Below are positions 3,072 through 7,515 of a stretch of DNA of 64,000 bases, one piece after another. Position 1 is the first letter of the stretch. Every line of letters starts with the position of its first letter. The DNA comes from Nonomuraea indica. Its GTDB lineage: Bacteria > Actinomycetota > Actinomycetes > Streptosporangiales > Streptosporangiaceae. The position numbers and the translations under genes were made by a program. The stretch is from positions 62,001 to 126,000 of the forward strand of contig NZ_KZ559480.1 in assembly GCF_002850745.1 (NCBI RefSeq). The letters run 5' to 3'. The notes beneath the pieces are model-generated. The model saw nothing but the letters and a program-made list of their open reading frames with translations. It did no database searches and was not told where the DNA came from.

Positions 3072-3464
3072 CTACCGGCGGGCGTGCGTCGCCGTCGCGG
3101 CCGTGGCCTGCTGGCCGGACGCCGGGCCGGACGCCGGGCCGGACGCCGGGCCGGACGCCGGGCCGGACGCCGGGCCGGACCTCGACGCGTCGACGGGGTG
3201 GAGAACGGCGAGGATCTCGCCGATCTGGTGGCCGCCCTCGAGGGGGTGGCGCAGCGGCAGGGTCGGGTTGAGCTGGTAGCGGTTGCGGCGGCCTTCCCGG
3301 GTGGCTGTGAGGTATCCGGCGGCGGTGAGATCGGCCAGGATGCGTTGCGCGGCACGCTCGGTGATGCCGACGCGGGCGGCCACGTCACGGATGCGGGCAC
3401 CGGGGTCGCGGGCGATGCACAGCAGCACGTGGGCGTGGTTGGTCAGGAAGGTCCAGTCCGGCAC
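3072..3464 (-). CDS. Small winged-helix transcriptional regulator with a GPAS-repeat tail
   Basis: 130 aa from a GTG at 3462-3464; homologues begin with the same WTFLTNHAHVLLCIARDP text, so longer starts are unlikely. Residues 1-75 form an ArsR/MarR-like winged helix (RIRDVAARVGITERAAQRILADLTAAGYL, wing REGRRNRYQL). The family is common in actinomycetes as a stand-alone DNA-binding protein. The last third is unusual: (GPAS)n encoded by a 12-bp tandem repeat, likely disordered. Target genes are unknown; it runs in the same direction as the DUF4037 gene, 136 bp upstream of that gene's start. Confidence 0.82.
   Translation of the reverse strand: MPDWTFLTNHAHVLLCIARDPGARIRDVAARVGITERAAQRILADLTAAGYLTATREGRRNRYQLNPTLPLRHPLEGGHQIGEILAVLHPVDASRSGPASGPASGPASGPASGPASGQQATAATATHARR
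3113..3180 (-). repeat. 12-bp tandem repeat coding for (GPAS)n
   Basis: About 5.7 copies of GGCCGGACGCCG, in frame within the regulator gene; each unit encodes four residues (G-P-A-S). Units are nearly identical, suggesting recent slippage expansion. Confidence 0.93.
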
Positions 3465-3692
3465 GTCTCCATCGTACAAAAGGCGCTGGATGTGTCCGGA
3501 ACGCAAACTGACGAACCAGCGAGCGTGGATCCTGCCGGGTCAGGGACCTCCTGCGCGCGCTGGAGCGGCCCGTGCTGCGGGCGGAGGCGTGCCCGTCGCC
3601 GGAGGTTCCCCACCGGCCGTTCGGCGCCTCAGGTGAAGCCGAGAGCATCGGCCGCCGTGCGGCGGCGCCGCGACACGGTCTGGCCCCGACGG

Positions 3693-4175
3693 TCAGTTCC
3701 TGGTGGCGGTCAGCCAGTTGCGTACGTCGAGCATGGCGGTGCCGTCGCTGTCGGCGTCGATGTCGGCGGCCAGGTCGGCGATGGAGGTCCGGGCGAGCGC
3801 GTGGGACCAGGCGTCCTGGGCGGCGGCCATGGCTCGGGCGATCGCGCAGGGCCGTGAGCACCGTTCGGCGGGGATGCCGAGGGGGCCGCGCTGCCGGATC
3901 TCGGCGCACCGGTACGCGGGCTCGTCCCCGTCGATGGCCTGCACCACCTCCAGGGCGCTGATCTCCGAGGCGGGCCTGGTGAGGGTGTAGCCGCCGACCT
4001 GGCCCATGGTGGAGCGGACGATGCCGGCCCGCGACAGTGCCTGCAGGTGCTTGGCCGTGTACGCCGGCGGGGTGCCGTGCAGTTCCGCCAGCCGAGCCGC
4101 CGGCACCGGTTCGTGGCTCTGGCTGAGGGTGACGCAGCTGTGCAACGCCCACTCGACCCCGCTCGACATCTTCAT
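3693..4175 (-). CDS. Rrf2-family regulator, RsrR-like (probable [2Fe-2S] redox sensor)
   Basis: 160 aa. Residues 5-70 form the Rrf2 winged helix (PVPAARLAELHGTPPAYTAK, wing GQVGGYTLTRP). Cysteines are at 14, 90, 106 and 110. Residues 8 and 12 are Glu and His (VEWALH). In Streptomyces RsrR the [2Fe-2S] cluster is held across the dimer by two Cys of one subunit and Glu8/His12 of the other, so the ligand set looks conserved here. The gene is divergent from a CynX-type MFS gene, with two palindromes of identical architecture between them, consistent with redox-controlled repression of both genes. Plain Rrf2 assignment is certain; RsrR-type chemistry is inferred. Confidence 0.88.
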   Translation of the reverse strand: MKMSSGVEWALHSCVTLSQSHEPVPAARLAELHGTPPAYTAKHLQALSRAGIVRSTMGQVGGYTLTRPASEISALEVVQAIDGDEPAYRCAEIRQRGPLGIPAERCSRPCAIARAMAAAQDAWSHALARTSIADLAADIDADSDGTAMLDVRNWLTATRN

Positions 4176-4192
4176 GCCCCCACCCTACCCGT

Positions 4193-4213
4193 CTCGGACA
4201 AGTAATGTCCGAG
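4193..4213. promoter_or_regulatory. Rrf2 operator candidate, site 1
   Basis: Perfect 8-bp arms with a 5-nt spacer: CTCGGACA-N5-TGTCCGAG. It lies 17 bp upstream of the rrf2 start codon in the divergent region shared with the MFS gene. Confidence 0.8.
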
Positions 4214-4225
4214 TTGTGATATGAA

Positions 4226-4246
4226 CTCGGATAGAAAATATCCGAG
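4226..4246. promoter_or_regulatory. Rrf2 operator candidate, site 2
   Basis: Perfect 8-bp arms with a 5-nt spacer: CTCGGATA-N5-TATCCGAG. Same layout as site 1, with centres 33 bp apart (about three helical turns). It lies 19 bp before the MFS start codon, so binding would block that promoter. Confidence 0.8.
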
Positions 4247-4265
4247 ACAAGGTGTCGGAGCGCCC

Positions 4266-5474
4266 ATGACGCAGACAGCACTGCCCTGCACCCGCACATC
4301 CCTGGGGGTGGCCGCCCTGGCGTTGTTCGTGGCGGCGGCGAACCTGCGGCCGGCCATCGCGGCCGTCTCGCCGCTCGTCGACCACATCCGCGCAGACCTG
4401 GATCTGTCGGCGACCGGAGTGTCGCTGCTGACCACCATCCCGACGCTGGCCATGGGGGTGTGCGCGCCCCTGGCCGCGTACGCGGGCCGACGGTACGGCC
4501 TGCACTCCGGCGTACTCGCCGGGCTCGTGATCATCGCCGTGGCCACCGCGGCGCGCCTGCTCGGCGAGTCCACCTGGCTGCAGTTGAGCAGCGCGGCCGT
4601 CGTCGGAGCAGGGATCGCCATCGCCCAGACGCTGCTGCCCGCCGTGGTCAAGACCCGTTTCGCCGCCCGCGCCGGGCTGGTCACCGGCGTCTACACCGCC
4701 GGGCTCGGCCTGGGCGGCGCGGTGGCGGCCGGAGTGAGCGCGCCGCTGGCCGACGCCCTCGGCTCCTGGCCGGGAGCGCTGGCGTCCTGGGCGGTGCTCG
4801 CGCTGGCGGGCATCGCGCTGTGGTCGGCCGCCAAGGGCTCGCTGGGCCTGGCCGACGCCATGGCCCCCGCCGGGCCCGCCGCCCAGCGGATACCCTGGCG
4901 CAGCGGCGTGGCCTGGCACATCACCCTGTTGTCGGCCGTCAACTCCGCCCTGTACTACTGCGAGCTGGCCTGGGTGGCGCCGCTGTTGCACGATGACGCC
5001 GGTCGCGACGCGGCGACCGCCGGGCTCATGCTCACCGCGATGATCTCCATTCAGGTCGTGGCGATGCCGGCCGTACCGGCGCTGCTGGGCGAGCGCCGCG
5101 GCACGTGGGCGGGTCTGGCAGTCACGATGACGCTGACCTCTGCCGGCTTCCTGGGGCTGGCGTACGCGCCCGGCACGGCGACATGGGTGTGGATCGCGGC
5201 GCTGGGCGTGGGGCACGGCGGGCTGTTCACGCTCGTGCTCACCCTGCCCGTGCTGGCCGGCCGCGACCCCGGCGAGGCCGGGCGGATCAGCGCGATGGCG
5301 TTCTTCGTCGGGTACGGCTGCGCCGGGCTGGCTCCGCTGCTGGTGGGCGCGCTGCGCGATGCCACCGGCGACTTCACTCTCGCCTTCGGCTCGCTGGGCG
5401 CGATCGGCCTGCTCATGCTCGTGCCCGTCGCCCGCCTGCGCAGCGCCGTCCTCCGTCCGGCCGAGGCAGGCTGA
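4266..5474 (+). CDS. CynX/NimT-family MFS transporter
   Basis: 402 aa with about 12 hydrophobic segments. The N-terminus (AANLRPAIAAVSPLVDHIRADLDLSATGVSLL, split here for length) is the CynX/NimT signature: NLRP in TM1 followed by a long periplasmic helix. The family includes E. coli CynX (cyanate) and NimT (2-nitroimidazole exporter). The ATG at 4266 is preferred over one at 4221, which would lie within the operator region. The stop is 1 nt before the next gene's ATG. Divergence from an RsrR-like regulator suggests export of an electrophilic or redox-active compound; the substrate is not known. Confidence 0.88.
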   Translation: MTQTALPCTRTSLGVAALALFVAAANLRPAIAAVSPLVDHIRADLDLSATGVSLLTTIPTLAMGVCAPLAAYAGRRYGLHSGVLAGLVIIAVATAARLLGESTWLQLSSAAVVGAGIAIAQTLLPAVVKTRFAARAGLVTGVYTAGLGLGGAVAAGVSAPLADALGSWPGALASWAVLALAGIALWSAAKGSLGLADAMAPAGPAAQRIPWRSGVAWHITLLSAVNSALYYCELAWVAPLLHDDAGRDAATAGLMLTAMISIQVVAMPAVPALLGERRGTWAGLAVTMTLTSAGFLGLAYAPGTATWVWIAALGVGHGGLFTLVLTLPVLAGRDPGEAGRISAMAFFVGYGCAGLAPLLVGALRDATGDFTLAFGSLGAIGLLMLVPVARLRSAVLRPAEAG

Positions 5475-5475
5475 C

Positions 5476-6027
5476 ATGCGCCCCCATCACCGAGAAGGCG
5501 CGGGCGGCCGCGTGAACCTCGAACGCCTCACCGGTCAGGAGGTCGTGGCCCGCGCCTCCGAGTTGGTGAAGATCTACCGGGCCGCGTTCGGCGGCCCGCC
5601 GTGGCACGAGGACGATCGTGCCGCCGACGCCTTCGCCGAACGCCTGGCCGCGGACGCGCGACGTCCCGGATTCGCGGCGGTGCTGGCCGCCGACAACGGC
5701 GGACCCGCCGGTTTCGGTACGGCATGGCGCACCCCGAGGCCCTTCCCCACGGGCCGGGCCTACGATCTCGTCCGCGCCGAACTAGGTGACGCGGTGGAAA
5801 CGCGGCTGGGAGGCGCGCTGGAGGTGGACGAGCTGGCGGTGAGCCCGCACGCGCGCGGTCAGGGCCTCGCGGGACGGATCCTCGACCTCCTGTGCGGCCG
5901 CGCCGGCTCCTGCTGGCTGCTGACCGCCCCGCGAGCGACTGACGCGATCAGGCTCTACGAACGGCTCGGCTGGCGGCGCCTGACCGGGGCGAGGGCGGAC
6001 GTCGTGGTGTTCGTGCGTTCGCCGTGA
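5476..6027 (+). CDS. GNAT-family N-acetyltransferase
   Basis: 183 aa from the ATG at 5476; a GTG at 5512 is an alternative. The GNAT core is visible: GALEVDELAVSPHARGQGLAGRIL (strand 4 plus the acetyl-CoA loop with R/QGxGxA-like ARGQGLAG), followed by TAPRATDAIRLYERLGWRRL, the usual C-terminal 'N/DxxAxxLYxxxGF' element. It begins 1 nt after the MFS stop, so it is co-transcribed with the exporter and may acetylate the same toxic compound, but the acceptor cannot be read from sequence. Confidence 0.85.
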   Translation: MRPHHREGAGGRVNLERLTGQEVVARASELVKIYRAAFGGPPWHEDDRAADAFAERLAADARRPGFAAVLAADNGGPAGFGTAWRTPRPFPTGRAYDLVRAELGDAVETRLGGALEVDELAVSPHARGQGLAGRILDLLCGRAGSCWLLTAPRATDAIRLYERLGWRRLTGARADVVVFVRSP

Positions 6028-6081: not shown

Positions 6082-6489
6082 TCAGGCGGCGGCGGTGGCT
6101 GCCGCCGTCTCGGCGAGGATGCCGAGGAAGTGCGGCCACCCCTCGGCGTGGGGTGGGACCTGCGACTCCGGCAGGTTCGAGTGGGTCAGGTCGACCCGCG
6201 TGCCGGTGGCCGTCGGCGTCAGGCGGAACGCCACCTCGGTCGACCCGGCGGGAAGGACGTCGTCGGCCTCCAGTCCCCAGGTGACGACGACCGAGCGGGG
6301 CCGGTCCACCTCGACGAACTCGCCGCGGATCGGGTTCCCGTCGATGTCGACGGCGAACACGCCGCCCGGCCGGGGATCGAGCTCGGCGCTGCGGCCCATC
6401 CACGCCAGCATCCCGTCGACCGTGACGAGGTGGTCGAACACGATCTCTGGCGGGGCGTCGATGTCGATGGAGGTGGTGAACTCAGCCAT
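6082..6489 (-). CDS. SRPBCC (AHSA1-like) domain protein
   Basis: 135 aa, one SRPBCC fold: FTTSIDIDAPPEIVFDHLVTVDGMLAWMG, the central sheet (GEFVEVDRPRSVVVTWGL), then a C-terminal helix ending in an Ala-rich tail. Third gene of an operon in which it overlaps the ArsR gene by 8 bp. Ligand unknown. The arrangement matches the ArsR-SRPBCC pair at 680-1842, but the order relative to the metal-binding gene is specific to this locus. Confidence 0.88.
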   Translation of the reverse strand: MAEFTTSIDIDAPPEIVFDHLVTVDGMLAWMGRSAELDPRPGGVFAVDIDGNPIRGEFVEVDRPRSVVVTWGLEADDVLPAGSTEVAFRLTPTATGTRVDLTHSNLPESQVPPHAEGWPHFLGILAETAAATAAA

Positions 6490-6859
6490 GGGTCCTCGCG
6501 GTCTTCTCAGCGGCGGTCTTCTCGGCAGCGGTGTTCTCGGCAGCGGTCTTCTCGGCAGCGGTCTTGAGAGCGGCCAGGTGATCGGGCCAGAAGCCCTCCA
6601 GGAACTGGCGGACGACGGCGAAGCCGTCGGTGCGCACGACGAAGAGGTGGCGGGTGCCCTCCCGCGTCTCGGTGACGAGCCCGGCTCTGCGGAGGACCCG
6701 GAGATGGTGGGAGACGGCCTGCTGGCTCATCGCCATCGCGTCGGCGACCTCGCCCACCGCCCGGGGCTCGTCCCGAACGATGCTCAGGATGGCGCGGCGG
6801 TTGCCGTCGGCCAGCGCCCGGAGGGTACTGTCCAGCACCTCGGCGGTGGCTGCGCTCAC
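6482..6859 (-). CDS. ArsR-family regulator with TAAEK-repeat tail
   Basis: 125 aa from a GTG at 6857-6859, whose bases overlap the TGA of the upstream TIGR03086 gene. Winged helix: LRALADGNRRAILSIVRDEP, recognition helix MSQQAVSHHLRVLRRAGLV, wing EGTRHLFVV. The C-terminus is a run of (T-A-A-E-K/N) units encoded by a 15-bp tandem repeat, likely a charged helix or disordered tail not seen in normal ArsR proteins. It probably controls the palindrome at 7414-7429 upstream of its own operon. Confidence 0.88.
   Translation of the reverse strand: MSAATAEVLDSTLRALADGNRRAILSIVRDEPRAVGEVADAMAMSQQAVSHHLRVLRRAGLVTETREGTRHLFVVRTDGFAVVRQFLEGFWPDHLAALKTAAEKTAAENTAAEKTAAEKTARTHG
6500..6559 (-). repeat. 15-bp tandem repeat coding for TAAEK units
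   Basis: Four copies of GGTCTTCTCGGCAGC with a few substitutions, in frame near the 3' end of the ArsR gene. Unit length is a multiple of three, so copy changes only lengthen the tail. Confidence 0.92.
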
Positions 6860-7404
6860 GGCGTCCTGCCGAGGTAGGCGACGAGCCGCTCGGACGCCGT
6901 GGCGCCGGTGTCGAGCGCCGGGCCGAGCGCGGGGCCGAAGGCGTCGCCGCGCTGCGCCTCCCCGATGGCCGCGTGGGCGAAGGTGAGGACGGCGGACGCG
7001 AGGTCGTCCGGGATGGACGCCGCTTCGCCGCCGGCCTGGCTGATGTCCCAGCCGTGGACGACGGCTTCGAGGAGGTTCGCCGACGCCATGACCGGCCCGG
7101 GCATCGTCCCGAACGGCAGCTCGTAGGTGCGATCCATCGCGCCGGGCTGCCGCCAGGCGAGCCGGGCCCGGGCCGCGAGGTCGGCCATGGCGGCGTCCCA
7201 TGGTCCGGTGACGGTGGCGCCGCCGCCGTCGAGGGCGTCGGCGAAGGTCGCCATGCTCTGGACGGTGTGGTCGAGCAGCGACCGGAGGTCCCAGTCGCCG
7301 CACGGGGTGGCGGCGTCGAGGGCATCGGCCGGGACGGCGGCGATGCGGGCCGTCGTCCACGTCAGGCCCTTGTCGAGCAGGTCGAGGGTATCGGTGCTGT
7401 GCAT
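6856..7404 (-). CDS. TIGR03086-family metal-binding protein (DinB/mycothiol-dependent isomerase-like)
   Basis: 182 aa from the ATG at 7402-7404; an earlier in-frame ATG at 7438-7440 would overlap the operator. The DinB-like four-helix fold is recognisable from PCGDWDLRSLLDHTVQSM (first metal His) and NLLEAVVHGWDIS (second His plus Asp context), typical of the mycothiol-dependent maleylpyruvate isomerase superfamily. Such proteins bind a divalent metal and often use mycothiol; the actual reaction is unknown. First gene of a three-gene operon (this, ArsR, SRPBCC), joined by a GTGA overlap. Confidence 0.86.
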   Translation of the reverse strand: MHSTDTLDLLDKGLTWTTARIAAVPADALDAATPCGDWDLRSLLDHTVQSMATFADALDGGGATVTGPWDAAMADLAARARLAWRQPGAMDRTYELPFGTMPGPVMASANLLEAVVHGWDISQAGGEAASIPDDLASAVLTFAHAAIGEAQRGDAFGPALGPALDTGATASERLVAYLGRTP

Positions 7405-7413
7405 GACTCTTAC

Positions 7414-7429
7414 ACAAACAGTCGTTTGT
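7414..7429. promoter_or_regulatory. Palindrome upstream of the TIGR03086-ArsR-SRPBCC operon
   Basis: ACAAAC-AGTC-GTTTGT, a perfect 6-bp dyad in an A+T-rich pocket, 9 bp before the operon's first ATG. Likely the operator of the ArsR protein encoded second in the operon. Confidence 0.7.
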
Positions 7430-7515
7430 ACAAAAGTCAAATGGTGTTCCAGGCGCTCGAATCGTCACGGGACCCCAGCTTCAGGATGACTGAAGGTTGC
7501 TGCAAGAATGTCGGC

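Follow-up and report, generated by a model that had tools for sequence, protein, structure and literature searches.

A predicted RsrR-type Rrf2 repressor paired with a divergent MFS transporter in Nonomuraea indica

An Rrf2 regulator gene in the soil actinomycete Nonomuraea indica lies back to back with a transporter gene, which raises two questions: what does this regulator control, and to which signal would it respond? A preliminary description of the locus had proposed an RsrR-like sensor that acts through two operators and joins an exporter and an acetyltransferase in redox-triggered detoxification. We analyzed the locus within a stretch of 64,000 nucleotides (contig NZ_KZ559480.1, positions 62,001 to 126,000 of the forward strand), referred to here as the window. 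The features discussed below are collected in Table 1.

Table 1. Features of the regulator-transporter locus (window positions)
Feature	Position	Strand	Basis
RsrR-type Rrf2 repressor (predicted), 160 aa	3693..4175	-	Pfam Rrf2 E 2.7e-29; PDB 6HSD match
Candidate -10 (TAGGGT) of rsrR, 6 nt before start codon	4182..4187	-	TANNNT conserved in relatives
Operator 1, CTCGGACAAGTAATGTCCGAG = CTCGGACA-AGTAA-TGTCCGAG	4193..4213	.	Exact match; published RsrR EMSA motif; kept in relatives
TGATA, candidate extended -10 of transporter promoter	4217..4221	+	Conserved between operators; role inferred
Operator 2, CTCGGATAGAAAATATCCGAG = CTCGGATA-GAAAA-TATCCGAG	4226..4246	.	Exact match; kept in relatives
MFS transporter, CynX/NimT-like, 402 aa; predicted target	4266..5474	+	Pfam MFS_1 5e-24; TIGR00896 245 bits
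GNAT acetyltransferase (start 5476 or 5512), probably cotranscribed; accessory	5476..6027	+	Pfam Acetyltransf_1 7.9e-10

Identity of the regulator and its cluster ligands

Among proteins of solved structure, the Rrf2 product matched Streptomyces venezuelae RsrR (PDB 6HSD) over residues 1 to 156 with an E value of 9e-58. The next solved family, NsrR, gave an E value of 7e-8, leaving RsrR as the only close solved relative. The preliminary description had proposed aligning the protein with RsrR; this alignment is gapless, with 94 of 156 residues identical (60%), and the residues E8, W9, H12, C90, C106, and C110 are all present in the window's protein and common to both. Together with the matching operator described below, these features bear out the RsrR-like assignment, and, judged from its sequence, the gene product is a member of the RsrR subfamily of Rrf2 regulators, a kind already known.

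Two cysteines from one RsrR subunit hold the cluster together with a glutamate and a histidine from the other (PMC11138216). Across the lineage of the window's protein, E8, H12, C90, and C110 are invariant, as is the switch residue W9. The ligand set put forward earlier (Glu8, His12, and Cys90, Cys106, and Cys110) can be kept for Glu8, His12, Cys90, and Cys110. Position 106, however, is Tyr or Phe in 23 members of the wider family that retain E8, W9, H12, C90, and C110, so Cys106 provides no evidence for ligation; we discarded it as such, RsrR itself having only two cysteine ligands. In the 2019 account by Volbeda, these two are reportedly numbered 90 and 110.

Conservation of the pair and its place in the tree

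Searches of genome collections yielded 24 distinct intact loci in which the Rrf2 protein was at least 67% identical to that of the window. All 24 carry the same divergent MFS transporter (67 to 88% identity); Nonomuraea, Actinocorallia, Actinomadura, Nocardia, and Rhodococcus are among the genera represented. The sensor-transporter pairing suggested earlier is therefore strengthened. From the side of the transporter, homologs with at least 67% identity occur in 5 of 395 genomes of the class, each time adjacent to this Rrf2 gene, and the next relatives in these 395 genomes are only 38 to 41% identical; within Nonomuraea, the pair is present in 12 of 55 genomes. Two loci from the genus of the window (L065 and L069) are identical to those of N. 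dietziae and N. zeae, which places the window in Nonomuraea. Distances among the Rrf2 proteins track those among the transporters (r = 0.83; 0 of 2,000 permutations), a correlation that partly reflects shared ancestry. Since the flanking genes vary between genera, the gene pair appears to move as a unit with the control region that it shares. In a search of a plasmid collection, the transporter was matched only by two archaeal relatives of ∼40% identity and by a Nonomuraea chromosome listed among the plasmids; the latter is an 11.85-Mb replicon of Nonomuraea gerenzanensis (NZ_LT559118.1; L113), a chromosome judging by its size. In Kibdelosporangium banguiense (L009, 4776-5438), the C terminus of the transporter (from residue 315) abuts Rrf2 residue 11 and the operators are absent; this locus is a decayed remnant from which the shared control region has been deleted.

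Relatives that are 53 to 63% identical and have all six residues, S. venezuelae RsrR included, almost always lie beside a gene for an NmrA-like SDR protein (Pfam NAD_binding_10, NmrA), which is divergent in most of these loci and otherwise oriented in two. This NmrA-linked lineage, with S. venezuelae RsrR inside it, is supported in the tree at 98/94, and the MFS-linked proteins adjoin it as a separate group. The gene neighborhood agrees: with a divergent NmrA-like gene as the mark of the lineage, the window's Rrf2 gene falls outside it, its partner being the MFS transporter. The MFS-linked proteins may share one origin. Two Nocardia proteins nest beside the window's Rrf2 protein (99/89), which suggests transfer between families.

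The MFS-linked group is apparently a conserved, undescribed sister branch to RsrR whose dedicated target is new, and the literature covered, which was partial, contained no MFS-linked RsrR. Judging by a full-site search that is blind to half sites, this branch looks as if it has one dedicated target. On the NmrA-linked side, Trp9 is replaced by Ala or Thr, with every cluster ligand retained, in several RsrR proteins from one actinomycete genus (L047, L049, L051, L054, L055, and L056), which offer natural tests of the Trp9 mechanism.

Operators and the control region

The two perfect palindromes described earlier between the genes are both exact copies of CTCGGAYA-N5-TRTCCGAG. The 33 bp said to separate them is correct as a start-to-start distance, whereas the gap is 12 bp. 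The oligonucleotide JM0141, used in EMSAs with RsrR, contains CTCGGATACCCGATGTCCGAG and CTCGGATAGTCTGTGTCCGAG (PMC5015018). Outside the N5 spacer, operators 1 and 2 equal the JM0141 sites at all fixed positions, the JM0141 pair being 27 bp apart start to start; by this match, the operator motif is one already known from RsrR. Exact copies in the 8.29-Mb genome are limited to operators 1 and 2, and the reversed control pattern has none. A full-site search of the genome gave the two exact sites plus a 19-mer differing at one position, half sites lying beyond what sequence can judge, and a scan of the window alone with up to three mismatches returned an unremarkable three matches against 0.89 expected.

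Two operators matching at least 13/16 positions are found in all 24 related loci and in 0 of 4,800 shuffled intergenic regions. As all loci with operators were also found by the protein search, the sample was not selected by motif. Operator-like matches without an Rrf2 neighbor (L003, L030, L033, and L034) each overlap open frames and offer no evidence of a regulatory site; they were set aside. The operators are 32 to 33 bp apart in 17 of the 24 loci and 27, 34, or 42 bp apart in the rest; pairs in the NmrA lineage are mostly 27 bp apart. As 33 bp is about three helical turns and 27 bp about two and a half, the dimers would be expected on the same face of the DNA here and on opposite faces in the NmrA lineage.

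Candidate promoters were called by eye and by conservation. A TANNNT hexamer lies 6 to 7 nt ahead of the rsrR start codon in 24 of 24 related loci, predicting a leaderless rsrR message, and TG[AG]TA is found between the operators in 23 of 24. Scanning the intergenic region for sigma-70 promoters gave no match, and a terminator-like match there proved to be two operator halves pairing. The most probable start of the transporter is ATG 4266, where relatives retain GGAG...ATG, which leaves operator 2 outside the coding sequence; a longer frame from 4221, which would have placed operator 2 inside it, was rejected on the same comparison. Occupancy of both operators would cover the rsrR and transporter promoters.

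The 23 distant relatives with Tyr or Phe at position 106 have no CTCGGAYA sites. In 17 of them, a GGAYA-N6-RTCC core is located just before their own start codon (∼0.03 expected in all), and the base before GGA is mostly T (Tyr group) or G (Phe group) rather than C. At position 41, in the recognition helix, the three groups have Ala, Asn, or Lys, and this residue covaries with the flank base, a correlation that extends over few lineages. Rrf2 paralogs L060-L063, L075-L089, L091, and L092, which have Tyr or Phe at position 106 alongside E8, W9, H12, C90, and C110, carry one palindrome each, with the same geometry (e.g., ATCCTGGATANTACACATCCAGGAT), right before the start codon. We tentatively propose, at rather less than even odds, that RsrR-type repressors use at least three operator codes (C-GGAYA, T-GGATA, and G-GGATA half sites) set by residue 41 (Ala, Asn, and Lys) and include a horizontally spread single-target branch in which efflux is on when the cluster is reduced, opposite to SoxR.

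A proposed two-gene switch and its known counterparts

Our preferred reading, to which we give a probability of about 0.8, is an RsrR-type two-gene redox switch in which the oxidized Rrf2 dimer represses its own gene and that of the MFS transporter until the cluster is reduced or lost and both are released. Identity, ligands, operators, pairing, and promoter layout are read from sequence; the cluster, the redox direction, and repression are carried over by homology. RsrR binds DNA tightly only in its oxidized form and is released upon reduction (PMC5015018, PMC12594620), when Trp9 is shifted (PMC11138216, PMC12594620); deletion of RsrR raises expression of the divergent gene by 5.4 log2 (PMC5015018, PMC12594620). 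The predicted dimer would hold one [2Fe-2S] cluster per subunit, with C90 and C110 as ligands from one protein chain and E8 and H12 as ligands from its partner. When oxidized, the dimer would sit on both operators. It would thereby mask the leaderless rsrR promoter as well as the transporter promoter, which lies between the sites, and repress both genes. Reduction or loss of the cluster would protonate His12, move Trp9, and release the DNA, turning the transporter on. Because RsrR binds when oxidized and lets go when reduced, we predict that the switch is triggered when the cluster is reduced or lost rather than when it is oxidized. A redox trigger, as proposed earlier, thus survives by analogy with RsrR, in the direction of reduction, while oxidation as the trigger does not; the "exporter" and "detoxification" labels for the transporter are ones that we infer.

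The transporter scores 245 bits against TIGR00896 (CynX/NimT), below the curated cutoff of 406, so it is filed only as MFS_1, CynX/NimT-like. Of the CynX-type exporter described earlier, the CynX/NimT likeness and the pairing in 24/24 loci remain, without the CynX assignment itself. The transporter could instead import cyanate or another small molecule as part of a nutritional unit: its family is named after CynX, an annotated cyanate transporter, and its identity to CynX (29%) is about that to the 2-nitroimidazole exporter NimT (31%). We consider import doubtful, as no cyanase or catabolic gene recurs nearby and the variable flanks better fit a self-contained efflux unit.

A further possibility is that the cluster senses NO, iron or Fe-S supply, or a direct ligand rather than redox state, with the transporter following that signal. 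The relatives NsrR, RirA, and IscR use related clusters to respond to NO, iron, and Fe-S status, and little is known of what RsrR itself senses in vivo (PMC12594620). The Glu and His ligands and Trp9, however, are those of RsrR and not of NsrR or IscR, and the E values likewise favor RsrR over NsrR, which makes such sensing unlikely.

The acetyltransferase, included in the system by the preliminary description, starts 2 nt past the transporter stop. A close homolog is found in only three distinct loci and a distant GNAT in four more, all in Nonomuraea: the gene right after the transporter encodes a homolog of 60 to 80% identity in N. dietziae and in a second Nonomuraea, and the GNATs of four others share 33 to 39%. 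Within flanks of 5 kb or 1.5 kb, GNAT was undetected in Actinocorallia, Nocardia, Rhodococcus, Actinomadura, and the other Nonomuraea loci, and we rejected it as a core component. A three-gene detoxification operon of sensor, exporter, and acetyltransferase, which the 2-nt junction and the Nonomuraea homologs would suit, is accordingly improbable given this patchy distribution. Farther downstream, an AHSA1 protein (6082-6489, minus strand) and a protein with a mycothiol maleylpyruvate isomerase-like domain (6856-7440) show no sign of belonging to the unit. On the other side of the locus, a perfect 12-bp tandem repeat of 5.7 copies (GGCCGGACGCCG; 3113-3180) sits in the C-terminal part of a MarR-like HTH frame (3072-3506, minus strand).

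The proposed two-gene redox switch, conserved in several genera and with an apparently new target, would be a simple one-target system for learning what RsrR-type sensors respond to. With a single apparent target, the transporter would be a clean reporter for the RsrR-type signal, and the inducer or cargo of the pump would point to that signal. The difference in operator spacing and the covariation of residue 41 with the flank base allow a direct test of the DNA code that these regulators use.

The closest known system is RsrR (Sven6563) itself, which binds hundreds of sites in S. venezuelae, many of them half sites, and whose deletion gives no phenotype (PMC5015018, PMC12594620). The two share the gapless identity and E8/W9/H12/C90/C110, two CTCGGAYA-N5-TRTCCGAG operators between divergent genes (there, the nmrA-rsrR region), and a predicted leaderless-type promoter beside the start codon that is conserved in both lineages. 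They differ in the divergent gene (an NmrA-like regulator there, an MFS transporter here), in operator distance (27 and 33 bp, respectively), in tree lineage, and in regulon, which is large there, mostly through half sites, and known here from the full-site search only. E. coli NimR-NimT also has a repressor gene divergent from a CynX/NimT-type transporter, but NimR is no Fe-S Rrf2 protein and the transporters are only distantly similar. SoxR is a [2Fe-2S] activator of the MerR fold that is switched on by oxidation and places a resistance transporter under redox control. A [2Fe-2S] regulator, predicted in our case, and redox control of a transporter are thus common to both, whereas the regulator here is an Rrf2 repressor whose release is expected upon reduction.
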